35,917 bases of DNA, taken from assembly GCF_007845675.1 (NCBI RefSeq), contig NZ_VOBR01000049.1, positions 1 to 35,917 on the forward strand, in the 5' to 3' direction. Below the pieces are notes generated by a model. The model did not search any database, was not told the DNA's origin, and was given only the letters and a program-made list of their open reading frames with translations. This stretch comes from Lentzea tibetensis (GTDB taxonomy: Bacteria > Actinomycetota > Actinomycetes > Mycobacteriales > Pseudonocardiaceae). Positions 18,542-33,477 of this stretch are shown here, piece after piece; the stretch's first letter is position 1; each line of letters starts with the position of its first letter. The position numbers and the translations under genes were made by a program.

Positions 18542-18862
18542 CCAGGCGGCGCCGACTCCGACGACGACGCTCACCACGGCGTTCAGCGCGGCGAACCGGT
18601 ACTCGCGGCATTCGAACAGCCGCACGGTCTCGTAGCTGAACGTGCTGTACGTGGTGAGCCCACCGCACAGACCGGTGCCGAGCAGCGGCATCCACGCGCT
18701 GCTCGCACCGGTCAGCAGGCCGAGCACGAAGCACCCGACGACGTTGACGGTGAGCGTGCCGTAGGGGAAGTCCGACTCGTGGCGCGACTGCACGAGCCGG
18801 TCGGTGAGGTAGCGCAGCGGCGCGCCGACAGCTGCGCCGATGAACACCATCAGAGCGTCCAT
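18521..18862 (-). CDS. crcB: fluoride channel subunit FluC/CrcB (second of pair)
   Basis: The 113-residue four-helix membrane protein exports fluoride as a dual-topology dimer. ATG 18862 (MDALMVFIGAAVGAPLRYL) is the start; it overlaps the end of the preceding crcB gene by 13 bp. Family marks are the GGxxGAxxRY-like opening (GAAVGAPLRYL), the Asn helix GTLTVNVVGCFVLG and the central break GLCGGLTTYSTFSYE, which forms the Na+ site and the Phe-lined pore. Two adjacent, unequal crcB genes are the Gram-positive arrangement where the two proteins may form a heterodimer. The 3' end overlaps the convergent helR gene by 21 bp. Confidence 0.93.
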   Translation of the reverse strand: MDALMVFIGAAVGAPLRYLTDRLVQSRHESDFPYGTLTVNVVGCFVLGLLTGASSAWMPLLGTGLCGGLTTYSTFSYETVRLFECREYRFAALNAVVSVVVGVGAAWLGLQAG

Positions 18863-19257
18863 CGCACCAACCTCGTGCCGGCGAACGCGGCCGCGAACGC
18901 GCAGACGGGCGTCAGCAGCAGGTACCACGAGAAGTCGACCGCGTAGGCGGAGAACGTGGTGAAGCCGCCGAGCACGCCCACGCCGAGGAACGGCCGCACC
19001 AGCGGGTGCGCCTGGTAGACGTCGACGACGAGCACCATGAGCACGCCGATCAGGAACGAGCCCAGCACGTTGATCGCGAAGATCCCGAACGCGCCGGGTA
19101 CCGCGGCCGAGAGGGCGTAGCGGGCCACTCCGCCGAGCCCGCCGCCGAGCGCGATCACCGCGAGCACGCCGCCGTGCGTGCGGGTGAGTTCGGCTCGGTG
19201 CGCCGGGACGTGCAGGTCGACGTCCGGGTCGATCGGCTCGTCAGCTGGGGTCGGCAA
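18850..19257 (-). CDS. crcB: fluoride channel subunit FluC/CrcB (first of pair)
   Basis: The 135-residue product starts at TTG 19257, a start that lies inside the end of the marR gene (17-bp overlap); a later GTG in DPDVDLHV is an alternative. An acidic N-terminal tail of about 28 residues (DEPIDPDVDLHVPAHRAEL) precedes the channel and is common in actinomycete CrcB proteins. Channel marks: GGGLGGVARYAL, GIFAINVLGSFLIG with the pore Asn, and GVLGGFTTFSAYAVD with the TTFS break. With the following gene it forms a paired, probably heterodimeric, exporter. No fluoride riboswitch can be seen, since the upstream region is the marR coding sequence; expression likely depends on the marR promoter. 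Confidence 0.92.
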   Translation of the reverse strand: MPTPADEPIDPDVDLHVPAHRAELTRTHGGVLAVIALGGGLGGVARYALSAAVPGAFGIFAINVLGSFLIGVLMVLVVDVYQAHPLVRPFLGVGVLGGFTTFSAYAVDFSWYLLLTPVCAFAAAFAGTRLVRWTL

Positions 19258-19681
19258 GGTGGTCGACGAGGCGGTCCAGCGCGGCCAGCGCGCGGACCAC
19301 GTCCGCTCGTTCGGTGTCCTCCAGCTTGCCCAGCGCGGCGCCGATGCGCTTCACGTGCTCGCGCTGCCACACGGCCAGCTGCTCGTGGCCGCGGGTGGTC
19401 ACCGAGAGGCGCGCGACGCGGCGGTCCTTCGGGTCACCGCCCCTGATCACCAGTCCGGACTCGATCAGCTGGCTGATCAGGCCGGACACCGTGTTCGGGG
19501 CGAGTCGCAGCTCGGCGGCCAGCTCGCCGACCTTCATCGGCGGCCGCTCGGCCAGCGTCTGCAGCAGCTCGACCTGCGCCATCGGCAGCGACTCCCACGG
19601 CCAGTCGGCGCGGATGCTCGTCCGCAGCGCTCGGCGCAGCCTCGTGACGACGTCGGTGAGCGTGCGGGCCTCGTCTGACAT
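19241..19681 (-). CDS. MarR family winged-helix regulator
   Basis: The 146-residue regulator has the DNA-binding core QVELLQTLAERPPMKVGELA, AELRLAPNTVSGLISQLIES and the wing GGDPKDRRVARLSVTTRG. N- and C-terminal helices (LTDVVTRLRRALR; ADVVRALAALDRLVDHLA) form the dimer. Its gene is divergent from the MFS exporter across 56 bp holding an inverted and a direct repeat, the standard layout for a regulator of drug efflux. Downstream it overlaps the first crcB gene, so the fluoride channels are probably transcribed with it. The ligand is unknown. Confidence 0.9.
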   Translation of the reverse strand: MSDEARTLTDVVTRLRRALRTSIRADWPWESLPMAQVELLQTLAERPPMKVGELAAELRLAPNTVSGLISQLIESGLVIRGGDPKDRRVARLSVTTRGHEQLAVWQREHVKRIGAALGKLEDTERADVVRALAALDRLVDHLADPS

Positions 19682-19690
19682 GCGGCAACC

Positions 19691-19735
19691 TTACTGAAAG
19701 CCGTAAATACCTCTGGGTCAGATATAATCTGGGTA
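19691..19735. promoter_or_regulatory. divergent promoter and operator of marR and MFS exporter
   Basis: The 56-bp gap holds TATAAT (19723-19728), a consensus -10 box only 9 nt before the exporter ATG, implying a leaderless or nearly leaderless mRNA. Two direct repeats TCTGGGT (19712-19718 and 19728-19734) flank the box, 16 bp apart. TTAC-N8-GTAA (19691-19706) is a dyad nearer the marR side. These are the candidate MarR binding sites. Confidence 0.55.
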
Positions 19736-19737
19736 CG

Positions 19738-20745
19738 ATGAACTGGCTGGTGATCGGCACGGTGTGCTTCGGCGCGTTCATGGGGCAGCTCGACGCGAGC
19801 ATCGTCACGCTCGCCTTCCCCGCGATCGGTGAACGCTTCGGGGCCGATGCCGCGCGCGTCGAGTGGGTGTCCCTCGCGTACCTGATCGCGCTGGTCGCGC
19901 TGCTCGCGCCGGTCGGGAGGTTCGCCGACCGGGTCGGCCGCAAGCGCGTCTACGTCGGCGGTTTCACGGTGTTCACGGCGGCGTCGCTGGCGTGCTGCCT
20001 GGCGCCGACGCTCGACGCGCTGGTGGTGGCGCGGGTGGTCCAGGCGGCCGGTGCGGCGATGTTGCAGGCCAACAGCGTCGCGTTGATCGTGACGAACGTC
20101 GCACCGGAGAAGATGCGCGCGGCACTGGGCGTGCAGGCCGGCGCGCAGGCGCTGGGGCTCGCCGCCGGGCCGCTCGCGGGCGGGTTCCTCGTCACCTCGC
20201 ACGGGTGGGCGTCGGTGTTCGCGATCAACGTGCCGGTGGGCGTGGCGGCGATCGTCGCCGGGCACTTCCTGTTGCCCGACGCGGAGTCGCGCGGTGCGCG
20301 GATCGAGCTCACGCCGTTGCGCGATCCGCTCGTGGTCGCCGGTCTCGGCGGCGTGCTGGTCGCGTACGCGGTGCTGTTCGCGCCGATGGTGGTGCTGCCG
20401 TTCACCATGCGGCAGCCGTTGACCGACGTCGGGCTCGTGGTCGCGGTGCTGCCCACCGGGTTCGCGGTGGCCGCGACGCTGCTCACCAGGGCATCGCGCC
20501 GCGCCGGGATCACTCTGTCCATTGTGGCTGGTCTGCTGTTGACCAGTCCTGTACCCGCTGTTGTTCCCCTTTTCCTGCTGGGCATCGGACTCGGCATCGT
20601 GGTCCCGGCGAGCAGCAAAGCCGTGATGGCGCGGATTCCGGCGTGCAGCGCGGGACTCGGCAGCGGACTCGTGAACATGGCTCGGGGAATGGGCACCGCG
20701 GCAGGAGTCGCGGTCGCGTCGCTGTTGGTTCACTCCTTCCAGTGA
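19738..20745 (+). CDS. compact MFS exporter (DHA2-like)
   Basis: The 335-residue membrane transporter opens with the DHA2-type MGQLDASIVTLAFPAI helix. It has motif A-like RFADRVGRKRVYVGGF between helices 2 and 3 and motif C-like LAAGPLAGGFLVTSHGWASVFAINVPVG in helix 5. It is well below the usual 450-500 residues of 14-helix DHA2 pumps: after helix 6 the sequence DAESRGARIELTPLRDP passes directly into a helix-8/9-like region, so the central extra helices and adjacent loops are missing. About ten or eleven helices remain. Since the frame is intact and typical, this looks like a genuinely short pump or an old internal deletion. The divergent MarR gene and leaderless promoter suggest inducible efflux. 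The substrate is unknown. Confidence 0.87.
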   Translation: MNWLVIGTVCFGAFMGQLDASIVTLAFPAIGERFGADAARVEWVSLAYLIALVALLAPVGRFADRVGRKRVYVGGFTVFTAASLACCLAPTLDALVVARVVQAAGAAMLQANSVALIVTNVAPEKMRAALGVQAGAQALGLAAGPLAGGFLVTSHGWASVFAINVPVGVAAIVAGHFLLPDAESRGARIELTPLRDPLVVAGLGGVLVAYAVLFAPMVVLPFTMRQPLTDVGLVVAVLPTGFAVAATLLTRASRRAGITLSIVAGLLLTSPVPAVVPLFLLGIGLGIVVPASSKAVMARIPACSAGLGSGLVNMARGMGTAAGVAVASLLVHSFQ

Positions 20746-20810
20746 GCGTGACTGGGCCGATCGGGCACATTTGCTGACGGGCCGGTGGCGCGCCTCAGTA
20801 GCCTGCTCGC

Positions 20811-21608
20811 ATGACGTTGAGCTGGGTTCCAGAAGGTGTCGACACCGGTCTGCCGAGCGCCGCGAGGTTGTACGACTACCTGCTGGGCGGCGGCCACAAC
20901 TTCGCGGCCGACCGGGCGCTCGCCGAGAAGTTCCTGAAAGCGCAACCGAACGGGCGCACCATCGCGCGGCTCAACCGGGCGTTCCTGCGGCGTGCCGTGC
21001 TGTTCCTGATGGACCAGGGCATCCGGCAGTTCCTCGACCTCGGCTCGGGCATCCCGACCGTGGGCAACGTGCATGAAATAGCGCAGAAGGCCGATCCGGA
21101 AGCCCGCGTCGTGTACGTGGACTTCGAGGACGTCGCCGTCGCGCACAGCAGGCTGATCCTCGAGGGCGACGAGCGCGCGACGATCATCCAGGAGGACATG
21201 ACCGACCCGGCCGCCGTGCTCGCGGCCGCGCAGCGCAGCGGCCTGATCGACTTCTCCCAACCCGTCGGCGTGCTCACCGTCGGCGTCTTCCACTTCGTCG
21301 CGCCGGAGAAGGACCCGGCCAGCATCGTCGCCGCCTACCGCGACGCGGTCGTTCCCGGCAGCCACCTGGCGTTCTCGCAGTTCACCCAGGATCTCCAGCC
21401 CGAGGAGATGGCGGGTGTCGTCGAGGTCATGAAGAAGAGCATGAACCCGATGTTCCCGCGCACGAAACAGGAGATCACGGCCCTGTTCGACGGCTTCGAG
21501 ATCACCGAACCCGGCATCGTCCCGCTGCCGCTGTGGCGCCCGGACTCGGAGAACGACGACGATCCGGACAAGGCGGGCATCTACGCGGCCGTGGGTCGAA
21601 AGTTGTAG
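20811..21608 (+). CDS. SAM-dependent methyltransferase, DUF574 type (Methyltransf_19)
   Basis: The 265-residue product has the hallmark opening of this actinomycete family: TGLPSAARLYDYLLGGGHNFAADRALAEKFL, followed by NRAFLRRAVLFLMDQGIRQF and the SAM-binding loop LDLGSGIPTVGNVHEIA. VVYVDFEDVAVAHSR supplies the acidic residue that binds the SAM ribose, and TIIQEDMTDP the adenine-side Asp. The family is greatly expanded in actinomycetes; the acceptor substrate is not known. ATG 20811 gives the usual N-terminus. It lies 65 bp downstream of the MFS gene and 46 bp upstream of the PAS-GGDEF-EAL gene, both on the same strand; I see no clear functional tie. Confidence 0.9.
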   Translation: MTLSWVPEGVDTGLPSAARLYDYLLGGGHNFAADRALAEKFLKAQPNGRTIARLNRAFLRRAVLFLMDQGIRQFLDLGSGIPTVGNVHEIAQKADPEARVVYVDFEDVAVAHSRLILEGDERATIIQEDMTDPAAVLAAAQRSGLIDFSQPVGVLTVGVFHFVAPEKDPASIVAAYRDAVVPGSHLAFSQFTQDLQPEEMAGVVEVMKKSMNPMFPRTKQEITALFDGFEITEPGIVPLPLWRPDSENDDDPDKAGIYAAVGRKL

Positions 21609-21654
21609 TCCGTTCCCACCTTGTTGGCCACTCGGGCCCGGTTCCGTACTCTCT

Positions 21655-23601
21655 GTGAACAGTATGCAACGGTCTCAACTAGCCCATGTCTGGGCGCGCG
21701 CGATCTCGTCGACCGCGTACGTCCCGCTGTCCCCTGCCGAGATCGAGGCGTACCTCTACGAGCTGCTCGAACTCCTGCCCACCGCACCGGAAACGGTCGC
21801 CGAGCGCATGGTCGCGATCCGCCTCACCGGCCCGGACTCGCTGCGCCGCACCATCGAGGTGCTGGCACCCGAGTACGAACAGAGCGTGATCGCCACGCTG
21901 AGCTCGCAGTACGCGTTCGCCATGCGGCTGGACGCCTTCGACCAGCAGGAGCAGATCAAGGTCGCCCTGATGGCGTCGAAGCGGCGCGTCGAACGGGTGC
22001 TGAAGGTCAGCGAAGCCCGCTTCCGCGAGGTCTTCACGTCGTCCGCGCTGGGCATCGCGATCACCGACTTCGCAGGCGTGTGCGTCGAAGCCAACGACAC
22101 GCTGGCCGAGATCGTCGGCCACGGCTCGCTGATCGGCCGGTCCCTGTTCGACTTCTTCCACCCGGCCGACGCCGAACGCCTCGGTGCCGCCTACCGCCGC
22201 GTCCGCAACGGTGTGGTGGACCGCTTCCGCGAGCAGCGCAAGCTCATCCGCGCCGACGGCGAGCCCGTGTGGGTCTACCTGGCGGGGTCCCTGCTGCACG
22301 ACGCGGACGGCGTGCCGACCCACCACGTGACGATGATCGAGGACATCAGCGAGCTCTACCTGCTCCAGAAGAACCTCGACCACCAGCTGCTGCACGACTC
22401 GCTCACCGGCCTGCCGAACCGCCAGCACTTCGTCACCCAGCTGGAGAAGCTCCACGGCCAGGGCCCGATCACCCTGTACCACCTGGATCTCGACGCCTTC
22501 TCCGTCGTGAACAACGGCCTCGGCCACGCGGCGGGCGACACCCTGCTGCGCTCGGTCGCCCAACGCCTGCACGCCGTGGCGTCCGCGCAGAACGCCGTGC
22601 TGGCGCGCATCGGCGGCGGCGAGTTCGGCATCGTGTGCTTCGCCAACGAGGTCCCCGAGATGGTGTCGCTGATCCAGGAGGAGCTGACCGAACCGACCTA
22701 TGTGGACGGACACGGCCTCGCCCTGTCCGTCAGCATCGGCGTGGTGGACCGCCCGCCTGGTTCGTCGAGCGTGTCCGAGTTGTTGCGCGCCGCCAACTCC
22801 GCGCTGCGGCAGGCCCAGCAGCGCGGCATGCGGCAGTGGGCGTTGTACGACCCGCACGAGGACGCCGTGCGGCGCGGGCAGGCCGCGCTGGCCGCCGCGT
22901 TGCCCGGTGCGGTGGAGAGCGGTGAGCTGTCCGTCGACTACTCGGCCGTGCTGGACCTGCCTTCGCGTGAGGTGATCGGGCTCGCCGCCCGGCTGCGGTG
23001 GGGCGATCTCGGGCACGCGCAGACGCTCGCGCTGGCCGAGGAGACCGGGATCTCGCTGCCGATCGGGCAGTGGCTGCTGCACGAGTCGTGCGCGCAGGCC
23101 GCGCAGTGGTTGTCCGCCCTGGGTGAGCGGGCGCCGATGCTGCACGTGGCGCTCAGCCCGTTGCAGTCGCGCGACGAGGATCTGGTGGCGCACGTGAAGC
23201 GAACGCTGGACGAGACCGGGCTGCCCGCGTCCCAGCTCCGGGTGGCGCTGGACATCGGGTCCGTGCTGGCCGGTGACGACAACGTGCACGTGCTGGCGGA
23301 CAACGGGATCGGCACCGGCGTCGACGGGTTTCACGGCGGGTACCACGAGCTGGCCCTGTTGAGCGAGCTGCCCGTGCGGGCTGTCGTGGTGCGCGCGGCC
23401 GTGGCCGCCGAGGGGACCGTCCTGCACGCGGCCATGGGCGACGTGGTGGCCGCCGTGCACCGGCTCGGCGTCCGGGTCGTGGCCGACGGAGTCGGTTCGG
23501 ACGGGGACGCCGACTGGTGGACCTCGGTCGGTGCGGATGCGGTGCACGGGTTGATGCCCGCGCTGTCCGCCGCCGAGATGACCGAGTACCTGGCGAACTA
23601 G
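21655..23601 (+). CDS. PAS protein with degenerate GGDEF and EAL domains
   Basis: The 648-residue cytoplasmic protein has no membrane segment. GTG 21655 or ATG 21664 may start it; no ribosome site is seen, so a leaderless mRNA is possible. Layout: a helical N-terminal domain (about 1-110), a PAS sensor (about 115-235, RFREVFTSSALGIAITDF), a GGDEF domain (about 245-400) and an EAL-like domain (about 410-645). The diguanylate cyclase signature reads GGGEF (320-324), losing the metal-binding Asp. The EAL signature reads GLAARLRW (442-449), with Ala444 in place of the catalytic Glu. Both enzymatic activities are therefore doubtful; a c-di-GMP-binding or protein-binding signalling role is more likely. 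The gene converges with pntB, with stop codons overlapping by 3 bp. Confidence 0.9.
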   Translation: MNSMQRSQLAHVWARAISSTAYVPLSPAEIEAYLYELLELLPTAPETVAERMVAIRLTGPDSLRRTIEVLAPEYEQSVIATLSSQYAFAMRLDAFDQQEQIKVALMASKRRVERVLKVSEARFREVFTSSALGIAITDFAGVCVEANDTLAEIVGHGSLIGRSLFDFFHPADAERLGAAYRRVRNGVVDRFREQRKLIRADGEPVWVYLAGSLLHDADGVPTHHVTMIEDISELYLLQKNLDHQLLHDSLTGLPNRQHFVTQLEKLHGQGPITLYHLDLDAFSVVNNGLGHAAGDTLLRSVAQRLHAVASAQNAVLARIGGGEFGIVCFANEVPEMVSLIQEELTEPTYVDGHGLALSVSIGVVDRPPGSSSVSELLRAANSALRQAQQRGMRQWALYDPHEDAVRRGQAALAAALPGAVESGELSVDYSAVLDLPSREVIGLAARLRWGDLGHAQTLALAEETGISLPIGQWLLHESCAQAAQWLSALGERAPMLHVALSPLQSRDEDLVAHVKRTLDETGLPASQLRVALDIGSVLAGDDNVHVLADNGIGTGVDGFHGGYHELALLSELPVRAVVVRAAVAAEGTVLHAAMGDVVAAVHRLGVRVVADGVGSDGDADWWTSVGADAVHGLMPALSAAEMTEYLAN

Positions 23602-24956
23602 AGCTGCTTCAGCGCGGCCAGCAACTTCGTCAGCGAGTCCTTGGCGTCGCCGAACAGCAGCGTCGTCTTGTCGTTGTACAGCAACGTGTTGTCCACGCCT
23701 GCGAACCCCGGTCGCATGGACCGCTTCATGAACACCACGGCCCGAGCCCGGTCGACGTCGAAGATCGGCATCCCGTAGATGGGACTGCTGGGCTCGTCCC
23801 GCGCACCGGGGTTGACCACGTCGTTGGCGCCCACGACCAGCGCGACGTCGACGGACGTGATGCCGGGGTTGATGTCGTCGAGCTCCTTCAGCTGCTCGTA
23901 CGGCACGTCGGCCTCGGCCAGCAGCACGTTCATGTGCCCCGGCATCCGGCCGGCGACGGGGTGGATCCCGTAGCTGACCGACACCCCGCGCGTCTCCAGC
24001 AGGTGCACCAGCTCACGCGCGGCGTGCTGAGCCTGCGCGACGGCGAGCCCGTACCCCGGCACCACGACGACGGAGTGCGCGTACCCCAGCAGGATCGCGA
24101 CGTCCTCGACCGTGCCGGACCGCACCGTCCGCTGCTCCCCCGCGACAGCCACGAGCGCGGGCGCGGTGAACGCGCCGAAGAGGATGTTCGTCAGCGGCCG
24201 CCCCATGGCCTGCGCCATCAACCGGGTCAGGATGGTGCCGGACGCGCCGACGAGCGTGCCCGCCACGATCAACAGGGTGTTGGCGAGCACGTACCCGGAC
24301 GCGGCCACGGCCAGGCCGGTGAACGCGTTCAGCAGCGAGATCGCGATCGGCACGTCCGCTCCGCCGACGGGCAGGACGAACAGCACGCCCAGCGCCAACC
24401 CGGCCAAAGCCAGCAGCACCAACAGGAACCCGGACGGGAACACCGACACGGCAACGGCCAGCACCACCGAGACAACGGCCACGCCGACGCTGACCACCTG
24501 GCCCGCGGGCAACACCACCGGCCGCGAGGTCATCAGCTCCTGCAGCTTCAGGAACGTCACCACGCTGCCGGAGAAGCTGACCGACCCGATCAGCACGGTC
24601 AGCACAGTCGCGACCCGGAACAGCACGGACGACGTGGGCACCGCGAGGAACTCGGCCAGCGCGACGAGCGCCGCTGCGGCACCACCGACACCGTTGAACA
24701 GCGCCACCATCTGCGGGATGGCGGTCATCTTGACCGAACGCGCCGCCGGGATGCCCACGACGACGCCCAGTGCCATCGCCACGAGGATCAACAGTCCGTT
24801 GTGGACGGCACCGTGCACGTACGCGGTGACCACGGCGATGGCCATGCCGAAGGCGCCGATCAGGTTGCCCGCCCGCGCGTACCGCGGCGTGGACAGCCCC
24901 TTCAGCGCGAGGATGAAGCAGAGCGCCGCGACGAGGTAGACCAGTTGGACCGTCAT
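23598..24956 (-). CDS. pntB: proton-translocating NAD(P) transhydrogenase subunit beta
   Basis: The 452-residue subunit starts at ATG 24956 within an ATGA overlap with the upstream gene. The N-terminal two thirds form the membrane domain dII, about nine helices (MTVQLVYLVAALCFILALKG onward), with the conserved PARSVKMTAIPQMVALFNGVGG stretch. The C-terminal domain dIII (about 270-452) binds NADP(H): GYGLAVAQAQHAARELVHLL is the nucleotide fingerprint, followed by GVSVSYGIHPVAGRMPGHMNVLLAEADV, GANDVVNP and GMPIFDVDRA. The complex uses the proton gradient to make NADPH from NADH. It is the last gene of the run nos-permease-pntAA-pntAB-pntB. Confidence 0.96.
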   Translation of the reverse strand: MTVQLVYLVAALCFILALKGLSTPRYARAGNLIGAFGMAIAVVTAYVHGAVHNGLLILVAMALGVVVGIPAARSVKMTAIPQMVALFNGVGGAAAALVALAEFLAVPTSSVLFRVATVLTVLIGSVSFSGSVVTFLKLQELMTSRPVVLPAGQVVSVGVAVVSVVLAVAVSVFPSGFLLVLLALAGLALGVLFVLPVGGADVPIAISLLNAFTGLAVAASGYVLANTLLIVAGTLVGASGTILTRLMAQAMGRPLTNILFGAFTAPALVAVAGEQRTVRSGTVEDVAILLGYAHSVVVVPGYGLAVAQAQHAARELVHLLETRGVSVSYGIHPVAGRMPGHMNVLLAEADVPYEQLKELDDINPGITSVDVALVVGANDVVNPGARDEPSSPIYGMPIFDVDRARAVVFMKRSMRPGFAGVDNTLLYNDKTTLLFGDAKDSLTKLLAALKQL

Positions 24957-25228
24957 CGCTTGTGCCCCTTGAACATCTCGAGCATCCGGTCGGTCACCAC
25001 GAACCCGCCGACGACGTTCACGGTCGCCAGGAACACCGCGAGCAGACCGAGCACCAGCTCCAGCGCGGACTCGGCGTTGCCGGTGATCAGGATGGCGCCG
25101 ACCAGGATCACGCCGTGGATGGCGTTGGCGCCGGACATCAGCGGCGTGTGCAGGATGGTGGACACCTTCGACACGACCTCGAAGCCCACGAACACGGCCA
25201 GCACGAAGATCGTCAGCAGGTCGATCAA
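24953..25228 (-). CDS. pntAB: NAD(P) transhydrogenase alpha-2 (membrane) subunit
   Basis: The 91-residue subunit starts at TTG 25228, overlapping the stop of the alpha-1 gene as TTGA, with AAGGAG about 6 nt upstream inside that gene. Three hydrophobic helices are present: LLTIFVLAVFVGFEVV, a segment through GANAIHGVILVGAILI, and LELVLGLLAVFLATVNVVGGFVV. The segment VSKVSTILHTPLMSGANAIHG is the family's conserved loop, and the tail VTDRMLEMFKGHKR is the standard end. Together with pntB it forms the proton channel. A split alpha subunit (three genes) is the usual form in actinomycetes and Rhodospirillum. It overlaps pntB by 4 bp. Confidence 0.95.
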   Translation of the reverse strand: MIDLLTIFVLAVFVGFEVVSKVSTILHTPLMSGANAIHGVILVGAILITGNAESALELVLGLLAVFLATVNVVGGFVVTDRMLEMFKGHKR

Positions 25229-26322
25229 GGCAGCTCCTTGCGCACGACGCCGTCGTGGGTGACGCAGCACCCCGCGAGCACCTCATCGGTCATGTCCGGG
25301 ACCACGGCGCCGTCCACCAGCATCGGCTTCAGCAGGTTCAGCACGTTGCGCGCGTAGAGCTTGCTGGCGTGCACCGGCATGCCCGACGGCAGGTTCAGCG
25401 CGCCGTGCACCAGCACCTCGCCGACCCACGTGTCCTCACCGGGCACCGAGCCCGCACAATTGCCACCGGACTCCGCCGCGCCGTCGACGACGACCGAGCC
25501 GGGTGTCATGGCCTTCAGCATGTCCGTGGTCACGAGCACGGGCGCCCGGCGTCCGGGCACCGCCGCGGTCGTGATCACGACGTCGGACGCGGCGACCCGC
25601 TCGCCGATCAGTTCCCGTTGGCGTTCGAGGAACTCCTCGGACTGGGCAGACGCGTAGACGCCGTCCTGCTTCTCCAGGTCCAGCTCCAGGAACCTCGCGC
25701 CGAGACTGCGCACCTCCTCGGCCGCGGCGGCGCGGATGTCGTACGCCTCGACGACAGCGCCGAGCCTGCGCGCGGTCGCGATCGCCTGCAGGCCCGCGAC
25801 TCCGGCACCCAGCACCAGCACCTTCGCCGGTGGCACGGTGCCCGCGGCGGTGGTGAACATCGGCAGGAAGCGCGGCAGCCGTTCGGCCGCGATGAGCACC
25901 GCGCGGTAGCCGGCGACCAGCGCCTGCGACGACAACGCGTCCATCGACTGCGCCCGTGTCACGCGCGGCAGCAGATCGAAGCTGAACGACGTGACGCCCC
26001 GCTCGGCGTACAGCCGCACGAGATCGGGTTCGGTCGCGGGCGACAGGAAGCTGATCGTGATGTCGCCCTGCCTGAGGTTTCGGGCTTGGTCAACGGTCAA
26101 CGGCTGAACGGACAGGACAACGTTGACGTCACCCACGGGGTCGTCCGGCACGACGGAAGCACCAGCCGCTCGGTACGCGGCGTCAACCGCGTGCGCATGG
26201 CGCCCGGCACCTTCCTGGACCAGCACAGTGAGTCCCGCTTCGACCAGCGGCGCAACGGTTTCCGGTACGCAGGCGACGCGGCGCTCAGCGGGCCGCGACT
26301 CTGCGGGTGTTCCCACTCTCAC
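25225..26322 (-). CDS. pntAA: NAD(P) transhydrogenase alpha-1 subunit (NAD-binding)
   Basis: The 365-residue soluble domain dI binds NAD(H). It opens VGTPAESRPAERRVACVPETV, related to alanine dehydrogenase. The Rossmann fingerprint is KVLVLGAGVAGLQAIATARR near 170, with the acidic ribose-binding residue in VVEAYDIRAAAAEEVRSLG; RAQSMDALSSQA, the mobile-loop region and ALNLPSGMPVHASKLYARNV are further conserved blocks. GTG 26322 is taken as the start; a second GTG two codons later is possible. It follows the permease stop by only 18 bp and overlaps pntAB, so it is expected to be co-transcribed with both neighbours. Confidence 0.95.
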   Translation of the reverse strand: MRVGTPAESRPAERRVACVPETVAPLVEAGLTVLVQEGAGRHAHAVDAAYRAAGASVVPDDPVGDVNVVLSVQPLTVDQARNLRQGDITISFLSPATEPDLVRLYAERGVTSFSFDLLPRVTRAQSMDALSSQALVAGYRAVLIAAERLPRFLPMFTTAAGTVPPAKVLVLGAGVAGLQAIATARRLGAVVEAYDIRAAAAEEVRSLGARFLELDLEKQDGVYASAQSEEFLERQRELIGERVAASDVVITTAAVPGRRAPVLVTTDMLKAMTPGSVVVDGAAESGGNCAGSVPGEDTWVGEVLVHGALNLPSGMPVHASKLYARNVLNLLKPMLVDGAVVPDMTDEVLAGCCVTHDGVVRKELP

Positions 26323-26340
26323 AGGACAGACGTTACGGGA

Positions 26341-27513
26341 TCACGGTGACCTGGACCACAGTACTTTCCGCGTGAGCCACCCGGCGGCACCGAGAGCGAG
26401 CACCAGGACACCGGCCGCGACCGACGCGATCGGCAGGCTGAACGCCAGCACCGCGCAGCCGAGCAGACCCAGTGCCGGAACGACGCGGCGGCCCAGTGAC
26501 CAGGCGCTCACGTTCGTGATGGCGTAGTAGCCGAGCACGCAGAACGACGAGAACCCGATGGCTCCGCGCAGGTCCGCCACCAGCACCAGGACGATGACGA
26601 CAAGTCCGACGACGACCTCGGCGTGTCGCGGCACCCCGTTGTGCACTGTCGCCAGCACCGGGGGCAGGTGCCGGTCGCGCGCCATCGCGAGCACGGTCCT
26701 GGACACCCCGAGTATCAGCCCGAGAAGCGCACCCAGTGCGGCGAGGCAGCCGGACACCCGGATCAGCAGCGCCAGGTCCGGCGCGACGGCGGCCAGCGGC
26801 GCGGGTGCCGACGCGAGCACGTCCGCGCCGACCGCGTTCAGAGCCGTGAACGCGACCACCGCGTAGACCGCGAGCGTGATGCCCAGCGCGAGCGGGATCG
26901 CGCGCGGGATCGTGCGCTCCGGGTCGCGCACCTCCTCGCCGAGCGTCGCGATGCGCGCGTACCCGGCGAACGCGAAGAAGAGCAGTCCGGCGGCCTGCAG
27001 CACCCCACCCGCTTTGAAGGCACCGAAATCGGCGTTGCCGTCCGCGGTGACGGCCACGGTTCCCAGTGCCAGCAACGTGATCGTCACGATGACCTTCGTC
27101 AGCAGCACGGACTTCTGCACGCCGACCACGTTGACCGCCGTGAGCGCGACGACCGCGAGCACCGCGAACAGCCGGGGCTGCCCGGCGTAGGCGCCGAACG
27201 TCATCGCCATCGCCGCGCAGCTCGCGGTCTTGCCGACCACGAAGCCCCAGCCTGCGAGGTAGCCCCAGAACGGGCCGAGGCGTTCCCGTCCGTAGACGTA
27301 CGTGCCGCCGGACTCCGGGTACCGCGCGGCGAGCCAGGCGGACGACATCGCGTTGCAGTACGCCACGAACCCGGCGATCACGAGCGCGAGGAGCAGTCCG
27401 GATCCGGCGACCGCGGCCGCCGGACCGAACACCGCGAACACGCCGGCACCGATCATGGAGCCGAGCCCGATGACGACTGCGTCGGTCAGGCCGAGCCTGC
27501 GCGTGAGTTCCAC
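26341..27513 (-). CDS. APC superfamily amino-acid permease
   Basis: The 390-residue transporter has eleven or twelve predicted helices. The first helix carries the unwound substrate motif LGLTDAVVIGLGSMIGAGVFAVFGPAA, where GSMIGAGVF binds the amino-acid backbone. RYPESGGTYVYGRERLGPFWGYLAGWGF follows in helices 2-3, and FFAFAGYARIATLGEEVRDPERTIPRAI is the conserved helix 6 and loop. This places it in the APA/cationic amino acid transporter-like group. Substrate prediction is not possible from motifs, but it lies 16 bp after the nitric oxide synthase gene and 18 bp before pntAA, so arginine or citrulline transport is an attractive inference. Start GTG 27513; the ribosome site is weak, which fits coupling to the upstream gene. 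Confidence 0.9.
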   Translation of the reverse strand: MELTRRLGLTDAVVIGLGSMIGAGVFAVFGPAAAVAGSGLLLALVIAGFVAYCNAMSSAWLAARYPESGGTYVYGRERLGPFWGYLAGWGFVVGKTASCAAMAMTFGAYAGQPRLFAVLAVVALTAVNVVGVQKSVLLTKVIVTITLLALGTVAVTADGNADFGAFKAGGVLQAAGLLFFAFAGYARIATLGEEVRDPERTIPRAIPLALGITLAVYAVVAFTALNAVGADVLASAPAPLAAVAPDLALLIRVSGCLAALGALLGLILGVSRTVLAMARDRHLPPVLATVHNGVPRHAEVVVGLVVIVLVLVADLRGAIGFSSFCVLGYYAITNVSAWSLGRRVVPALGLLGCAVLAFSLPIASVAAGVLVLALGAAGWLTRKVLWSRSP

Positions 27514-27529
27514 GCGCCCATCATGACGA

Positions 27530-28711
27530 TCAGTGCTGAACGGGGCAGGTACCGGGGGTGGAGGGGAAGAAGTTCGGCAGCAGCTCTTCCGAGTCGTAGT
27601 ACCGGTGGTAGACGGGCGTGATGCCGCCCGACACCGGCGGCACGATCCACGACCAGTCGGCGGGGCAGCTGCGACCGGCCGCCTCCTCCTTCTTGAGGTG
27701 CGTGAGGAAGCGCTGCGACTCGGTGTGGTGGTCGGTGATCGTCACCCCGGCCTGCGCGAACGAGTGCAGCACCGCCCGGTTCAGCTCGACGAGCGCCCGG
27801 TCGCGCCACAGCGTCTGCTCGGACGAGGTGTCGAGCCCCATCCGCTTCCCGATGTACGGCAGCAGGTCGTACCGGTCGTGGTCCGCGAGGTTGCGCGCAC
27901 CGATCTCGGTGCCCATGTACCAGCCGTTGAACGGGGCCGACGGGTAGTCGATGCCGCCGATGCGCATCCGCATGTTGCTGATCGCGGGCACCGCGTGCCA
28001 GCGGACACCGAGCTTCTCCAGCCAGTCCAGCTCCGGATGCGACAGCGGCACCTCCAGCACCGCGTCGGGGGGCAGGTCGACGAGGCACGACTTGCGTCCC
28101 TCCGTCCGCACCATCACCGGCAGCACGTCGAACGGCCCGCGCTCGGCGGGCGGCTGCCAGCCGTTGCGCAGCGCCTCCTCGGTCAGCGCCAGGTTGCGCG
28201 CGTCGCCCATCACGCCACCGTCCTTGCCGCGGTAGGCGGCGTACCGGACGATCTGCTCGTTGAGAATCCGCGGTGCGGGCGAACCGGGTTCCTCGGGGGC
28301 GAAGACGCTGATGACCGGGCGGATCTTGCCGCCGTTCGTGGCGACGCGCAGGTGCTCGACGCACTCGCGCGCCACGTCGGCGGGCTCGCTCACCTCGCGC
28401 AGGTCGCGAACCTTCAGGCTGCGCCAGTACAACCGGCCGATGCAGCGGGCGCTGTTGCGCCACGCGACCCTGGCGCCGAAGGTGAGTTCGGCCGTGGTGT
28501 GCCGATAGGTGCCGGTCGCGGCGATCTCCGCGTGCACCTCGGCCAGTCGGGCTTCCACCTTGCCGAGATCTGGGTTTTCGGCGTGGTGCTGGCGAACGAA
28601 GTCCTCTGCCTCTGCGATGTCGAACTCGGTGGGGGTCTCCGTGATCGAGTGCTCGACAAGGGAGGCGGACAGAGACATCACAACAGTCGGGGAGCTCGGG
28701 ACGGGGGCCAT
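27530..28711 (-). CDS. nos: bacterial nitric oxide synthase, oxygenase only
   Basis: The 393-residue heme enzyme converts L-arginine to citrulline and NO. Cys90 in WRNSARCIGRLYW is the axial heme ligand; Glu269 in GWYMGTEIGARNL binds the substrate guanidinium; ADWSWIVPPVSGG supplies pterin-stacking aromatic residues; and TPVYHRYYD is the terminal conserved block. Length matches bacterial NOS, which lacks the fused reductase and borrows electrons from cellular flavoproteins. The start is uncertain: ATG 28711, GTG 28732 or ATG 28678 are all in frame and none has a clear ribosome site. No reductase gene is adjacent, but the downstream permease and transhydrogenase genes could provide arginine and NADPH. 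No TxtE-like neighbour is adjacent, so a nitration pathway is not indicated. Confidence 0.95.
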   Translation of the reverse strand: MAPVPSSPTVVMSLSASLVEHSITETPTEFDIAEAEDFVRQHHAENPDLGKVEARLAEVHAEIAATGTYRHTTAELTFGARVAWRNSARCIGRLYWRSLKVRDLREVSEPADVARECVEHLRVATNGGKIRPVISVFAPEEPGSPAPRILNEQIVRYAAYRGKDGGVMGDARNLALTEEALRNGWQPPAERGPFDVLPVMVRTEGRKSCLVDLPPDAVLEVPLSHPELDWLEKLGVRWHAVPAISNMRMRIGGIDYPSAPFNGWYMGTEIGARNLADHDRYDLLPYIGKRMGLDTSSEQTLWRDRALVELNRAVLHSFAQAGVTITDHHTESQRFLTHLKKEEAAGRSCPADWSWIVPPVSGGITPVYHRYYDSEELLPNFFPSTPGTCPVQH

Positions 28712-28755
28712 GGCGGGACACCGTAATTGCACATTCGTGGAGCTGGAACCGCCTG

Positions 28756-28769
28756 TTCGGTTAGCCGAA
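28756..28769. promoter_or_regulatory. dyad upstream of nos
   Basis: TTCGG-TTAG-CCGAA is a 14-bp inverted repeat 45-58 bp upstream of the chosen nos start, within the 174-bp gap before the next gene. It could be an operator; the short length leaves chance occurrence open. Confidence 0.3.
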
Positions 28770-28885
28770 GACGATCTCTGGACCGCGTCCGATGCATTGA
28801 GTAGGTACTTGATAGTGCAAGCGGGTGACGGAGAGTGCGAAAAAGGGTGGTGTTCAACCGTTATCGCGCCGAGATCGCCCGTTGA

Positions 28886-29476
28886 TCAGTGAGCCGCGTC
28901 ACGGACGGATTCGACCCGATCGGGTGAAGTTGCCAGCCTGGTTACCAGTTGACCGCGAACGCGTGCCGGGAGCGCCGGGGCGAACCTCGTGAAGTAGCTG
29001 TCCAAGTGTCCTTTTGTGCCGAACATGAACGGCAGGTCGGCGGGTAACAACTGACGAATAGCGAGCAGTGGTACGGGCGAACGCAACGGGCGGAAGTTCC
29101 GGTTCCACAGCCCTGGTTCGTCACATGACGGATGGAACTGCCCGATCATCAGGCCACTCGCGACGAACTCGTCCTTCGCCTTTCGCTGAAGCGCATCCAG
29201 CTCGAATGGATCAGCGTCCGGGAGGACCAGCAAATACGTGAGCAATTCGCGTTCCGTCACGTCCAGCTGGTCCGCCCATTCCGCGTACCGCACGCGCAAC
29301 GCGTCCAGGTCGGGCGTGCCGTGCCGCACGTCCAGGTGGAACAGATCGCGTCGCATCGAGGCCTGCGTGTACGGGCACACCGGACCTGTCCGGCCGAGAT
29401 CCGCGTGGCCGGGCACCAGGAACTCTCGTGCCCAGCGGACGACCTCTGTCAGCGCGTCGACATCATGGACGTTCAC
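28886..29476 (-). CDS. DUF6875 domain protein
   Basis: The 196-residue soluble protein starts at GTG 29476, inside a GTGA overlap with the acetyltransferase gene and with GGAGGG 5 nt upstream. Recognisable blocks are GRTGPVCPYTQASMRRDLF near 25-45, DEFVASGLMIGQFHPSCDEP near 115-135 and the signature GLWNRNFRPLRSPVPLLAIRQ followed by DLPFMFG near 138-170, which I associate with DUF6875. The conserved Cys, His and Arg residues suggest an enzyme, but no activity is known to me. Tight coupling to a GNAT protein suggests that the two act in one pathway. Confidence 0.75.
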   Translation of the reverse strand: MNVHDVDALTEVVRWAREFLVPGHADLGRTGPVCPYTQASMRRDLFHLDVRHGTPDLDALRVRYAEWADQLDVTERELLTYLLVLPDADPFELDALQRKAKDEFVASGLMIGQFHPSCDEPGLWNRNFRPLRSPVPLLAIRQLLPADLPFMFGTKGHLDSYFTRFAPALPARVRGQLVTRLATSPDRVESVRDAAH

Positions 29477-30042
29477 GCCGCCCTCCACATGGGAACCAGC
29501 TGGGGGCCATCGGGAATCTGAATGCGTCCACCGAGCGGGCGGAAACCCATCAGGTGCGCGCCCGCCAGGCCCGCGGCCGAGCTGGCCTCCACGTACATCG
29601 GCCCGGTGCAGCGTTCGAGAAACCCGGTGGCCAGCAGGCGTCCGACCCCGGTGCGCGCGTGCAGGACACCGCAGAACGAGATGTACCAATGAGGTTCGCG
29701 CGGATGGTGCTCGACTTGCCGCGCACTGATCTCCGCCATCCGCTCGGCGCCTTCGCCCAACACGTCCCGCATCCGGCGCGCGATCTCGCGTTCCTGCCTG
29801 GCGCACAACGGACTCGCGCCCGGAGGCAACGCCAGCAGCACCCCGTCGCGCTCGGACGTCGTGAACACCGAGCCGTGCGCCAGCGACAGGTCCACGAAGA
29901 CGCGGAAGAAGTCGGGCAGCACCCGCCGCCTGACCTCGCCGTCGGGCACGATCCACCTGGTCAACGCGTCGTCGTGGAACGCTTCCGCCAGCACGAATGC
30001 CAGCTCCTCCGCGTCCCCGCGCTCCCCCATGACGATCTCCAT
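29473..30042 (-). CDS. GNAT family acetyltransferase
   Basis: The 189-residue product starts at ATG 30042. The N-terminal half has the GNAT opening (DAEELAFVLAEAFHDDALTRWIVPD), in the style of the acyltransferases that carry a DDxLxxWxxPD motif. The acetyl-CoA region comes late: PHWYISFCGVLHARTGVGRLLATGFLERC, with TGVGRLL as the pyrophosphate-binding loop, followed by the strand PMYVEASSAAGLAGAHLMGFRPLG. The acceptor is unknown. The gene overlaps the DUF6875 gene by 4 bp and follows the monooxygenase gene by 64 bp on the same strand. Confidence 0.85.
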   Translation of the reverse strand: MEIVMGERGDAEELAFVLAEAFHDDALTRWIVPDGEVRRRVLPDFFRVFVDLSLAHGSVFTTSERDGVLLALPPGASPLCARQEREIARRMRDVLGEGAERMAEISARQVEHHPREPHWYISFCGVLHARTGVGRLLATGFLERCTGPMYVEASSAAGLAGAHLMGFRPLGGRIQIPDGPQLVPMWRAA

Positions 30043-30106
30043 GCCCTGAGCGTGCTCCGCGCAAGCTGAGATCGGGCTGTGGACGGGTGTGACGCGAGGA
30101 ACGGTC

Positions 30107-31177
30107 TCAGAGCGACGGTGCGCGCCAGTCGCTGAACCTGGTCATGCCGCGCACTGCGACGCGCGGCGGCGTGAGCCGGAAGACCAGGTCCCGCAAAGCG
30201 ATCACGGCCGGGTTGCGCAGCTCGAAGCCCAGTCTGCCGATCGAACGGGACGCGCGGGCGATGGCCTGCGTGCGCGGCCTGCGCTCCTGGTCGTAGCGCT
30301 GGAGACCGGCCGTCACGTCACCGGGTGCCATGGCGGCGGCGAGCACGACGGCGTCCTCCAGCGCCATGCACGCGCCCTGGCCCATGTACGGGGTCATGGC
30401 GTGCGCCGAGTCGCCGAGCAGCGCGACGTTTCCGCTGACGTAGCTGGGCAGCGGCGTCGCGAGCCAGTGGATGTCGTGGCGCAGCACGGTTTCCGGTGGC
30501 GTGTCCGCGATCAGGCGCGGGAGCGGGTCGTGCCACGAGCCGAACAGCTCGCGGACGTCCAGGTCGGCGTTCGGTGCAGCGACCACGGAGCCGTACCAGT
30601 AGACGCGGCCGTCGCCGAGCGGCAGCACGCCTGCCTCCATGCCGGCGCCGAGCGTCTGCGAGACCTCGAGCCCGTCGAACGGGCCGGGTGCGATGCCGCG
30701 CCACGCCGTCGCGCCCGCGTAGACCGGGCCCGGCACGTCCGGGAACAGCTCGGCCCGCACGAAGCTGCGGATGCCGTCCGCGGCGACGATCAGGTCGGCG
30801 TCGAGCGACGACAGCGACGTGACCTCGGTCGAGGTGTGCAGGCACGACGCGGGCAGCGGCGCGAGCAGCGCGCGGTGCAGGTCCGCGCGGTGGATCGCGA
30901 CGAGCTCCTCCTGCCCGACCTCCGCGAGCTTCGCGAGCCAGCGCCCGTTCGGCGTCCGCACGCCACCGGGCACGCGCGGCGTGCCGAGCCTGCGCACCTC
31001 GGCGCCGATGCCCAGCGCGTCGACGGCGCGCAGCGCGTTCGCCATGACGCCGATACCGGCTCCGACCTCGCCGAACTCCGGTGCGCGCTCGAGCACGTCG
31101 ACGTCCCAGCCGACCTTGCGCAGCGCGACGGCCGCGGCGACACCGCCGAGTCCCCCGCCGATCACGATGGCCTTCAT
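30107..31177 (-). CDS. FAD-dependent monooxygenase (PHBH fold)
   Basis: The 356-residue group A flavoprotein hydroxylase begins MKAIVIGGGLGGVAAAVALRK (GxGxxG at 7-12). LERAPEFGEVGAGIGVMANALRAVDALG binds FAD; ADLIVAADGIRSFVR is the DG motif that contacts FAD and NAD(P)H; and VALLGDSAHAMTPYMGQGACMALEDA is the GD motif for the ribityl chain. Length is close to TetX-like and zeaxanthin-epoxidase-like members and shorter than Rox-type enzymes. The divergent TetR gene and the paired operator at 31189-31224 suggest substrate-inducible expression, so the role is probably oxidation of a xenobiotic or signalling molecule; the substrate cannot be named. AGAGGTGGGG lies just before ATG 31177. Confidence 0.93.
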   Translation of the reverse strand: MKAIVIGGGLGGVAAAVALRKVGWDVDVLERAPEFGEVGAGIGVMANALRAVDALGIGAEVRRLGTPRVPGGVRTPNGRWLAKLAEVGQEELVAIHRADLHRALLAPLPASCLHTSTEVTSLSSLDADLIVAADGIRSFVRAELFPDVPGPVYAGATAWRGIAPGPFDGLEVSQTLGAGMEAGVLPLGDGRVYWYGSVVAAPNADLDVRELFGSWHDPLPRLIADTPPETVLRHDIHWLATPLPSYVSGNVALLGDSAHAMTPYMGQGACMALEDAVVLAAAMAPGDVTAGLQRYDQERRPRTQAIARASRSIGRLGFELRNPAVIALRDLVFRLTPPRVAVRGMTRFSDWRAPSL

Positions 31178-31188
31178 GCCCCACCTCT

Positions 31189-31224
31189 TCTACAGCTGTA
31201 GAGGTCGTCATACTACAGCTGTAG
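31189..31224. promoter_or_regulatory. twin palindromic TetR operators between monooxygenase and regulator
   Basis: TCTACAGCTGTAGA (31189-31202) is a perfect 14-bp palindrome, and CTACAGCTGTAG (31213-31224) repeats its 12-bp core exactly. The centres are 23 bp apart, near two helical turns, so two dimers could bind on the same DNA face. They fill the 61-bp gap between the divergent starts, overlapping both promoters; the CATACT/AGTATG hexamer between them is a possible shared -10 region. Confidence 0.9.
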
Positions 31225-31238
31225 AACGGGAGGGCGAT

Positions 31239-31775
31239 GTGACCGAGCGCATGGCCGCACTGGCCGACGCGGCCATCCACCTCGTGGCCACGAAGGGCAT
31301 GCGCGGGCTGACCCACCGCGCGGTCGACGCGCAGGCCGGGCTGCCCGAGGGCTCGACGTCGGCGTACTTCCGCACGCGCAAGGCGTTGATCGAAGGGCTG
31401 GTCCGCAGGCTCGCCGAACTGGAGCAGGCCGAGGTCCAGCTGGACCCGGCCGACGTCGCGGGCAGCATCGCGGGCGTGCTCGAGCGCTGGCTGACGACCG
31501 GCAGGGAGCGCACGCTCGCCCGGTACGCGTGCATGCTCGAGGCCACGCACCACCCCGAGCTGCGAGGCATCCTGGAACACGGCATCGCGCCGCGCGAGCA
31601 GGCCGAGCAGCTGGCCGCGGCGCTGGGATCGGTCGATCCGCGACGCGACGGCGGGCACCTCGTCGCGTTCCTCGAAGGCCTGCTGTTCTACCGGCTCGTC
31701 GGTGCCGGTTCGACGCTGGAGCCCGCGAACCGCGACGACCTGAAGATCGCCGTCGAAAAGGCGTTGCGGTTCTGA
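31239..31775 (+). CDS. TetR family regulator of the divergent monooxygenase
   Basis: The 178-residue product starts at GTG 31239 after GGGAGGG; longer in-frame versions would read through the operators. The DNA-binding domain reads MAALADAAIHLVATKGMRGL, THRAVDAQAGLPEGSTSAYF and RTRKALIEGLVRRLAELE, with the GSTSAYF recognition helix of TetR proteins. The C-terminal ligand domain is short (about 60-178) and helical. Its position next to two perfect palindromes supports direct control of itself and the monooxygenase. The inducer is unknown. It ends 14 bp before the leader ORF of the ABC-F gene, so read-through into that operon is possible. Confidence 0.92.
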   Translation: MTERMAALADAAIHLVATKGMRGLTHRAVDAQAGLPEGSTSAYFRTRKALIEGLVRRLAELEQAEVQLDPADVAGSIAGVLERWLTTGRERTLARYACMLEATHHPELRGILEHGIAPREQAEQLAAALGSVDPRRDGGHLVAFLEGLLFYRLVGAGSTLEPANRDDLKIAVEKALRF

Positions 31776-31789
31776 GTAGCGTCGCAGAC

Positions 31790-31822
31790 ATGGGATTCGG
31801 CTACGGGGTCTTCTACCTCTGA
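31790..31822 (+). CDS. leader peptide ORF (uORF) of the ABC-F operon
   Basis: A 10-codon frame encodes MGFGYGVFYL and a TGA stop, 56 bp upstream of the ABC-F start. It is rich in aromatic residues and followed after 3 bp by a perfect 7-bp hairpin. Short ORFs followed by a hairpin ahead of ABC-F genes are known to sense ribosome-targeting antibiotics by stalling. The peptide is inferred to be translated; no strong ribosome site precedes it, but TAGCGT at 31777-31782 would allow a leaderless transcript. Confidence 0.6.
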   Translation: MGFGYGVFYL

Positions 31823-31825
31823 GCA

Positions 31826-31846
31826 GGACGTGCTGCTGACACGTCC
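31826..31846 (+). promoter_or_regulatory. attenuator-like hairpin between leader ORF and ABC-F gene
   Basis: GGACGTG (31826-31832) pairs perfectly with CACGTCC (31840-31846) around a 7-nt loop. A ribosome stalled near the end of the leader ORF would cover or disturb the left arm. No U-tract follows, so control of translation or a Rho-type mechanism is as likely as intrinsic termination. Confidence 0.55.
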
Positions 31847-31878
31847 GAGTTCGCCATGCCCATTTTCCGAGGTACCCC

Positions 31879-33477
31879 ATGCGCACGCATGTGCATTTGA
31901 CGACCGAAAACCTGTCCAAGGGCTTCGACACCGCACCCGTTCTCGACGGCGTGTCGCTCACCGTCAGCGCCGGCCAGCGGCTCGGCGTGATCGGCGAGAA
32001 CGGTCGAGGCAAGACCACGCTGCTCCGGTTGCTCGCCGGGGAGATCGCACCCGACAACGGCACGATCGCGCGCCACGGCTCCGTGTGCCTGGTGACGCAG
32101 GAGATGCCCGCCGACGGCACCGTCGGCGAGCTGCTCGACGCCGCGCTGGCGCCCGCGCGCGCCGCACTGTCCGAACTGGACGAAGCGGCGATTCTTCTTG
32201 CGCTGCCAGGAAACGAGCAGCGCTACGCGGACGCGCTCGCGCACGCCGAGCGCATCGAGGCGTGGGACGCCGAGCGGCGTCTCGAGCTGGCGCTGAAAGG
32301 CCTTGACGCACACCCGGACCACGACCGGCCGCTGGCCGAGCTGTCGGTGGGGCAGCGCTACCGCGTGCGGCTGGCGTGCCTGCTCGCCGAGCGCGCGGAC
32401 GTGCTGCTGCTCGACGAACCGACCAACCACCTGGACGAGAACGCGTTGGCGTACCTGGCGGAACGGCTGGGTGAGCACGCCGGTGTCGTGGTGATGGTGA
32501 GCCACGACCGGATGCTGCTCGACGACGTGTGCACGTCCGTGCTCGACCTCGACCCGACCCCCGATGGCGAGCTCCGCACGCACGGGGGCGGGTACACCGC
32601 GTTCAAGGCGGCCAAGAAAGCCGAGCGGGCGCGCTGGGAGCAGCGGTTCCAGCAGGAGAACGACGCGCACGACCGGCTCGCGGAGGAGGTCGAGAAGGCC
32701 AAGTCGCGGCTGGTCGACGGCTGGCGTCCGCCGAAGGGTGCGTTCAAGCACAAGCGCTCGACGCGCGCGCCGAGCAAGGTGCGCAACGTCGCGCGCAGGC
32801 TGGAGGAGCTCGGCGAACGCCGCGTCCCGCCACCGCCGCCACCGTTGCGGTTCACGCCACCCGCGCTCGAGGTGAAGGGAGATCTGCTCGTCGCGTCGGG
32901 TCTGGAGGTGCCAGGCCGGTTGTCGCTGGAGGAATCGCTCGCGCTCGCTGCGGGCGACCGGCTGCTCGTGCTGGGGCCCAACGGTTCCGGGAAGTCCACG
33001 CTGCTCAACGTGCTCGCCGGGCGGATCGCACCGGTGTGCGGGAGCGTGCACCACTCGGGCCAGGTCGGCCTCCTGGCGCAGGAGTCCGTCTTCGACGACG
33101 AGTCGCGACGCGCCGGTGACGTGTGCCCGCGCGCGCTCGAACTCGGTCTGCTTTCGGAAATCGACCTGCACAAGCCGGTCGGTGTGCTGTCAACTGGACA
33201 GAGGCGGAGGTTGTCGCTCGCGCAGCTGCTCACCGGGCGCCCGGACGTGCTGCTGCTGGACGAGCCGACCAACCACCTGTCGATCGCACTGGTCGACGAG
33301 CTGACCGAGGCGCTGCACGCCACGTCGGCGGCGGTGGTCGTGGCGACGCACGACCGTTGGTTTCGCACGGAGTGTGCCGCCTGGCGGACCGTAACTCCGA
33401 AACTTCCTTCACAGAGTCATGAAACTTCTGTAGCTTCGAAATCAGGTCCGCATAGCACTGGGAGGTGTGCGAGATGA
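31879..33477 (+). CDS. ABC-F family ribosome-protection ATPase
   Basis: The 532-residue soluble protein has two ABC domains and no membrane part. First domain: Walker A GENGRGKTT (39-47), signature LSVGQRYRVRLA (155-166), Walker B VLLLDEPTNHLD (175-186). The interdomain linker (about 240-320) is charged and helical, with a Pro run at 317-322; it is the part that in antibiotic-resistance ABC-F proteins reaches the peptidyl-transferase centre. Second domain: Walker A GPNGSGKST (366-374), signature LSTGQRRRLSLAQ (437-449), Walker B LLLDEPTNHLS (458-468). Both catalytic Glu residues are present. The family expels bound antibiotics from ribosomes. A leader ORF and hairpin precede it, and its stop overlaps the P450 start as ATGA, so resistance and P450 expression are coupled. 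Confidence 0.92.
   Translation: MRTHVHLTTENLSKGFDTAPVLDGVSLTVSAGQRLGVIGENGRGKTTLLRLLAGEIAPDNGTIARHGSVCLVTQEMPADGTVGELLDAALAPARAALSELDEAAILLALPGNEQRYADALAHAERIEAWDAERRLELALKGLDAHPDHDRPLAELSVGQRYRVRLACLLAERADVLLLDEPTNHLDENALAYLAERLGEHAGVVVMVSHDRMLLDDVCTSVLDLDPTPDGELRTHGGGYTAFKAAKKAERARWEQRFQQENDAHDRLAEEVEKAKSRLVDGWRPPKGAFKHKRSTRAPSKVRNVARRLEELGERRVPPPPPPLRFTPPALEVKGDLLVASGLEVPGRLSLEESLALAAGDRLLVLGPNGSGKSTLLNVLAGRIAPVCGSVHHSGQVGLLAQESVFDDESRRAGDVCPRALELGLLSEIDLHKPVGVLSTGQRRRLSLAQLLTGRPDVLLLDEPTNHLSIALVDELTEALHATSAAVVVATHDRWFRTECAAWRTVTPKLPSQSHETSVASKSGPHSTGRCAR

Follow-up and report, generated by a model that had tools for sequence, protein, structure and literature searches.

Nitric oxide synthase and transhydrogenase genes of Lentzea tibetensis probably form two neighbouring transcription units

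What reduces an oxygenase-only bacterial nitric oxide synthase (NOS), and how NO output is linked to cellular redox state, are standing questions. NOS of the B. subtilis and S. aureus type consists of a single oxygenase domain with an invariant Cys and Glu, and the accessible part of PMC9500659 describes most bacterial NOS as having no reductase domain. The neighbourhoods of actinobacterial NOS genes given in the excerpt of PMC10831120 are biosynthetic clusters. Proton-translocating transhydrogenase (PNT) is known in a form encoded by three genes, pntAA-pntAB-pntB, with overlapping starts. Among the amino-acid carriers of the APC superfamily, GkApcT accepts arginine when its Met321 is replaced by Ser (PMC5803215, in the part available), and for the actinobacterial regulator GlxR the consensus TGTGA-N6-TCACA is given in the portion of PMC7999487 at hand.

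The window analysed here is a stretch of 35,917 nucleotides of L. tibetensis in which genes of these three kinds lie side by side (Table 1). The original prediction had listed five minus-strand genes separated by gaps of 16 and 18 bp and then by two 4-bp overlaps; all of them were present at the positions given, with the expected Pfam domains, and the spacing was correct throughout. The nos product displayed an oxygenase domain with an invariant Cys97 and no reductase domain, as is characteristic of bacterial NOS; PF02898 matched residues 39-390 of 400 (497.7 bits, E 2.4e-149), and Cys97 and Glu276, which we take to be the heme ligand and the substrate binder, respectively, occupied invariant columns in an alignment of 17 NOS. 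The gene resembles those of B. subtilis and S. aureus in these features and differs from them in its neighbours, pnt and an APC permease. The product of pntAA-AB-B is predicted to be a proton-translocating transhydrogenase, as judged from AlaDh_PNT domains, a 4TM segment and PNTB encoded by successive genes. In domains, order and overlapping starts the three genes are like the known three-gene systems, whereas their position next to nos, in a clade of Lentzea, Saccharothrix and Umezawaea, sets them apart. For pntAA, both AlaDh_PNT_N and AlaDh_PNT_C were found and the score against NF006942 was slightly below the cut-off. The genome contained one PntB match, the pntB of the window.

Table 1. 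Genes and candidate regulatory sites of the nos-pnt region, numbered from the first nucleotide of the window.
Feature	Position	Strand	Remarks
nos, bacterial nitric oxide synthase, oxygenase only	27530..28711	-	PF02898, no other Pfam domain; ATG at 28711, stop ends at 27530
APC-superfamily amino-acid permease	26341..27513	-	PF00324, PF13520; GTG start
pntAA, NAD(H)-binding subunit of proton-translocating transhydrogenase	25225..26322	-	PF05222, PF01262
pntAB, 4-TM subunit	24953..25228	-	PF12769 (PNTB_4TM)
pntB, NADP(H)-binding and membrane subunit	23598..24956	-	PF02233 (PNTB)
PAS-GGDEF-EAL gene, convergent	21655..23601	+	4-bp overlap with the end of pntB; conserved neighbour
pnt promoter-like module	26330..26360	-	TGTGG-N6-TCACC, 9 nt, TAACGT (-10-like), 7 nt, GTG
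nos -10-like hexamer TACGGT	28720..28725	-	8 nt before ATG
Crp-like half-sites GTGA-N6-TCAC	28888..28903	-	~180 nt before nos, where the DUF6875 gene ends

Several features around the block were also recorded. The PAS-GGDEF-EAL gene and a Methyltransf_19 gene (20811-21608) flanked it in nearly all linked loci. On the other side, the DUF6875 gene and a gene of 189 aa without Pfam match (28886-30042) lie between a FAD monooxygenase gene and nos; in many relatives the FAD monooxygenase gene ends about 150-220 bp upstream of nos. A second, divergent NOS is encoded elsewhere in the same genome (C44, L048:5698-6804), beside a histidine kinase gene; it is 49% identical and has a shorter PF02898 match (8-309 of 362), of a kind common in the family survey.

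Relatives were compared in the best 80 of 590 related stretches scanned with the NOS alignment, comprising 22 Lentzea loci (L071, filed as Nocardia, being counted among them), 11 Saccharothrix, 3 Umezawaea, 1 Actinosynnema and 43 from other genera, with gene starts outside the window approximate (purpose-made gene caller or nearest start codon). Within this set, pntAA-AB-B came after nos in 21/21 judgeable Lentzea loci, the contig of the 22nd (L066) ending before pnt, in 11/11 Saccharothrix and in 2/3 Umezawaea. All five genes stood in order in 18 of the 21, and the other three had nos-pntAA-AB-B without the permease, which lay between nos and pnt in 19/22 Lentzea loci and 0/11 Saccharothrix. 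In U. beigongshangensis the permease gene was found behind nos with no pnt there and no PntB match, and in the Actinosynnema locus pntAA alone was beside nos. The proposed order nos-APC-pntAA-AB-B was thus borne out within the three genera, less the permease in Saccharothrix and in the two Umezawaea with pnt, but in none of the 43 loci of other genera was pnt seen beside nos (up to about 9 kb on each side, less at contig ends). The recurrence of the five-gene order is not due to chance. No description of the nos-permease-pnt arrangement appeared among the open-access literature matches listed.

Spacing varied. Of the 18 Lentzea loci that have both the permease and pntAA, only that of the nearest relative, L054, shared the 18-bp spacer ahead of pntAA; the other 17 had 39-40 bp (14 loci) or 1352-1422 bp (three loci, because of an insertion there). 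The insertions in these three of 18 loci are of the OrfB/TnpB type, confirmed by Pfam in L065 and judged by likeness in L059 and L060; a further one, Pfam-confirmed, separates pntAB from pntB in L073. Between nos and the permease the gap was 3-39 bp in 18 of the 19 Lentzea loci with both and 593 bp in L066; judged from the sequence, the two genes are close enough for co-transcription.

The surroundings of the block (16316-34679) kept their order and orientation in the 11 Saccharothrix loci, with some genes missing. Three regions (18521-18862, 19241-19681 and 33576-34679) were kept in 11/11 loci and a fourth (16316-18541) in 10/11. Since the surroundings are collinear too, the shared order within the clade is weak evidence of function, and the idea of the nos-pnt block as a synteny island was rejected, about 16 kb around it being likewise collinear. 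These regions favour a reading in which nos and pnt are neighbours without functional tie, inherited with one ancestral chromosome segment, but other outer genes were not kept to the same extent (19738-20745 in 6/11, 18850-19257 in 5/11, 31879-33477 and 34902-35522 in 0/11 Saccharothrix loci), the permease remains beside nos in U. beigongshangensis, and a Crp-like site upstream of nos, described below, is clade-specific and maintained. We give such plain inheritance even odds; it is compatible with two transcription units.

A conserved promoter-like element was found just before pntAA. Aligned DNA from Lentzea, Saccharothrix, Umezawaea and Actinosynnema shared a module of the form TGTGG-N6-TCACC, ~10 nt, TANNNT, ~7 nt, GTG, which in the window overlaps the permease stop codon and directly precedes pntAA. 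Its strict form was present in 32/36 nos-linked pntAA loci and its relaxed form in 35/36; the sole miss, L060, is the locus whose first half-site is altered by the edge of an insertion. Despite the insertions, the module was intact beside pntAA in L059 and L065, and it was also kept in the two Umezawaea loci with pnt, where the nos-pntAA gap is 599 and 1866 bp. A search of six whole genomes with the composite pattern gave one match in each, always before pntAA, vs. 1 match in all six together for the reversed control, and no perfect half-site pair occurred elsewhere in the window. The arrangement is like that of GlxR/Crp-regulated actinobacterial promoters, with a TGTG-N8-CAC-like site beside a -10-like hexamer, but the half-sites of this candidate site depart from the GlxR consensus (TGTGG and TCACC vs. 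TGTGA and TCACA). A generic sigma-70 scan, tuned to another consensus, found no promoter in the region (0.3 expected), and no terminator-like site was found there. Other candidates were set aside: an RNA element in the spacers (four folds with z-scores from -0.22 to 1.27 and no RNA structure), a Rex site (mismatch of the inner bases with the Rex pattern) and a relic of the module in U. beigongshangensis (two one-mismatch matches against 1.4 expected).

In the trees, nos-linked PntAA (16 loci) and nos-linked PntB (14 loci) each grouped together, separately from the unlinked PNT included for comparison (20 loci in each tree), and the PNT of the window clade formed a subclade separate from most of these 20 Pseudonocardiaceae loci. 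The nearest unlinked PNT were L136, in which the module precedes pntAA by an equal distance, and L139, with a looser GTG-N8-CAC form and TANNNT. Elsewhere among the unlinked loci, GTG-N8-CAC occurred at other distances in 4/20 and was absent within 150 nt in 14/20 (starts being approximate). As 16/20 unlinked loci were without even GTG-N8-CAC within 150 nt or had it elsewhere, the module belongs to the PNT subclade and not to pnt generally. A lone pntAA beside nos, without pntAB or pntB, was observed in Actinosynnema (L085) and a near relative, G021 (L049); the two copies showed a dN/dS of about 0.07, L085 kept the module, and G021 and G059 had a full but distant PNT elsewhere in the genome (L134 and L135).

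The conserved module indicates that pnt is most likely read from a Crp-like promoter of its own. The original prediction of a single operon had itself named a separate promoter before pntAA as an observation that would speak against it, and such a promoter is what the module resembles; a single operon judged from gap lengths alone was rejected once the module emerged. We consider it probable, at about 0.75, that nos, with or without the permease, and pnt are two neighbouring transcription units and not one supply-line operon. The genes, the gaps, the phylogeny and the conserved module, with its single occurrence in each of six genomes, were read directly, and from them we infer promoter activity, the identity of the regulator, a leaderless start and the metabolic roles, as follows. 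The first unit would be nos with the permease behind it, and the second pntAA-pntAB-pntB, encoding the sole PNT found in this genome, with a promoter just before pntAA, in which a TANNNT -10, together with a Crp/Fnr-type site lying across the -35 region, would give a leaderless message. This promoter probably came with the transhydrogenase and would predate the neighbourhood of nos; the permease may have been placed between nos and pnt once, in the ancestor of Lentzea and Umezawaea. PNT would supply NADPH for the whole cell, and NOS would draw on the general NADPH pool via an unlinked reductase. Because the gaps are short and no terminator-like site is present, read-through from nos into pnt is possible and an additional long mRNA may exist.

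In the prediction, a single operon would feed NOS: the permease would bring in arginine and PNT would provide NADPH. Short gaps, an order conserved within the clade, the lack of a terminator-like site in the region and Crp-like sites at both nos and pnt are in keeping with it, but pntAA has its own conserved promoter-like module and the permease is absent from all 11 Saccharothrix loci. The occurrence of the genes across genomes also argues against it. Of 150 family genomes, NOS was present in 84 and PntB in 118 (68 with both, 16 with NOS only, 50 with PntB only and 16 with neither, as tallied by hand from two survey tables), with no association beyond chance in these 150 genomes (Fisher P = 0.55); NOS and PntB were within about 4 kb on the same strand in 14 of them. 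The locus survey and the genome survey overlap, several strains being in both. Across the phylum, NOS was found in 7/346 genomes, and in the six other NOS genomes no PntB match was obtained at E 1e-60 (few candidates per genome scored).

The permease adds further arguments. Its nearest solved structures were xCT-like, CAT1 and GkApcT carriers, with profile E-values of 1.6e-36 for CAT1 and 4.1e-33 for GkApcT, as expected of homologous APC carriers. At the position of GkApcT Met321, which we infer through the CAT1 alignment, it has Leu266 in place of Met or of the small residue (Ser) through which a CAT-type carrier accepts arginine, and at the conserved TM6 Asp237 position of CATs it has Ala186; both residues were invariant in nine aligned sequences. 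A third position was CAT-like (Ala183, where CATs have Val), and the TM5 lysine was Lys in the window permease and Arg in several relatives. The proposed role as an arginine carrier is hence unsupported by the residues of the predicted protein. Of the 150 family genomes, at least 108 encode relatives of the permease, and NOS is missing from some of these. In a tree of 43 of 49 rows (L034, L036, L037, L039 and L047 were dropped as presumed duplicates and L163 as short), in-operon permeases lay on one side of a branch with support 99/88. They form one group, so the permease joined nos once in the sampled tree, and independent recruitment in two lineages was rejected. In seven pairs, dN/dS was 0.09-0.25 for the permease and 0.09-0.23 for nos; this purifying selection, together with the presence of the permease in 19/22 Lentzea loci among the best 80 of 590 stretches, suggests that its position beside nos has some value, and nos and the permease may be a true pair. 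The pntAA module, the independent occurrence of nos and PntB and the permease lineage in genomes without NOS weaken the supply-line operon to the point where we hold it improbable, and two units remain the preferred reading.

Upstream of nos, the hexamer and start codon (TACGGTG followed by the start) were recovered by pattern in 34/38 loci; in the other four, TACGGT was seen by eye in three and TATGTT in L074. The nos message would, by inference from this spacing, be leaderless or nearly so. Farther upstream, the full 8-base Crp-like core occurred 157-193 nt before the nos start used in 31/38 loci and 7/8 of its bases in 4 more (L063, L068, L077 and L129); among these 38 it was absent near this position in L065, L074 and L130. 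None of 41 scored loci of other genera had the core upstream of nos (2/43 had no called gene, and some starts from the purpose-made caller were clearly off). With these sites the Crp-like element of nos could co-regulate both units.

Under such control, a Crp-family regulator would switch nos and pnt together, as separate units, and make NO production and NADPH balance one regulon. The clade-specific full core at a nearly fixed distance, the promoter-like module at pntAA, the seven matches to Crp-type HTH over the cut-off in the genome and the likeness to the GlxR consensus cited above are in its favour. Against this, the nos -10 is a long way from the nos site, which may have another function, the nos and pnt sites are not of one exact type, the window nos site matches only 9/16 consensus bases, GTGA-N6-TCAC occurs 141 times in the whole genome vs. 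68 for the control, and the comparison with other genera depends on the called starts. A common Crp-type regulator is plausible from the motifs, and putative Crp-type control common to both is the most promising tie left between nos and pnt, but the regulon as such we regard as rather unlikely. The chances given to co-regulation and to plain inheritance overlap because both are compatible with two units.

More broadly, NO synthesis and the proton-driven transhydrogenase could be one Crp-controlled module, in which PNT, driven by the proton gradient, sets the NADPH for NOS and NO acts back on respiration and so on the gradient; we think this very doubtful. Were it true, the lone pntAA of Actinosynnema would be a partner or a sensor in its own right. 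The locus also counsels caution more widely: where actinomycete genes are separated by very short gaps, a promoter can lie hidden within the last part of the preceding gene. A nos-pnt regulon, if real, would offer a tractable place to examine how NOS is reduced and how NO output is coupled to the redox state of the cell.
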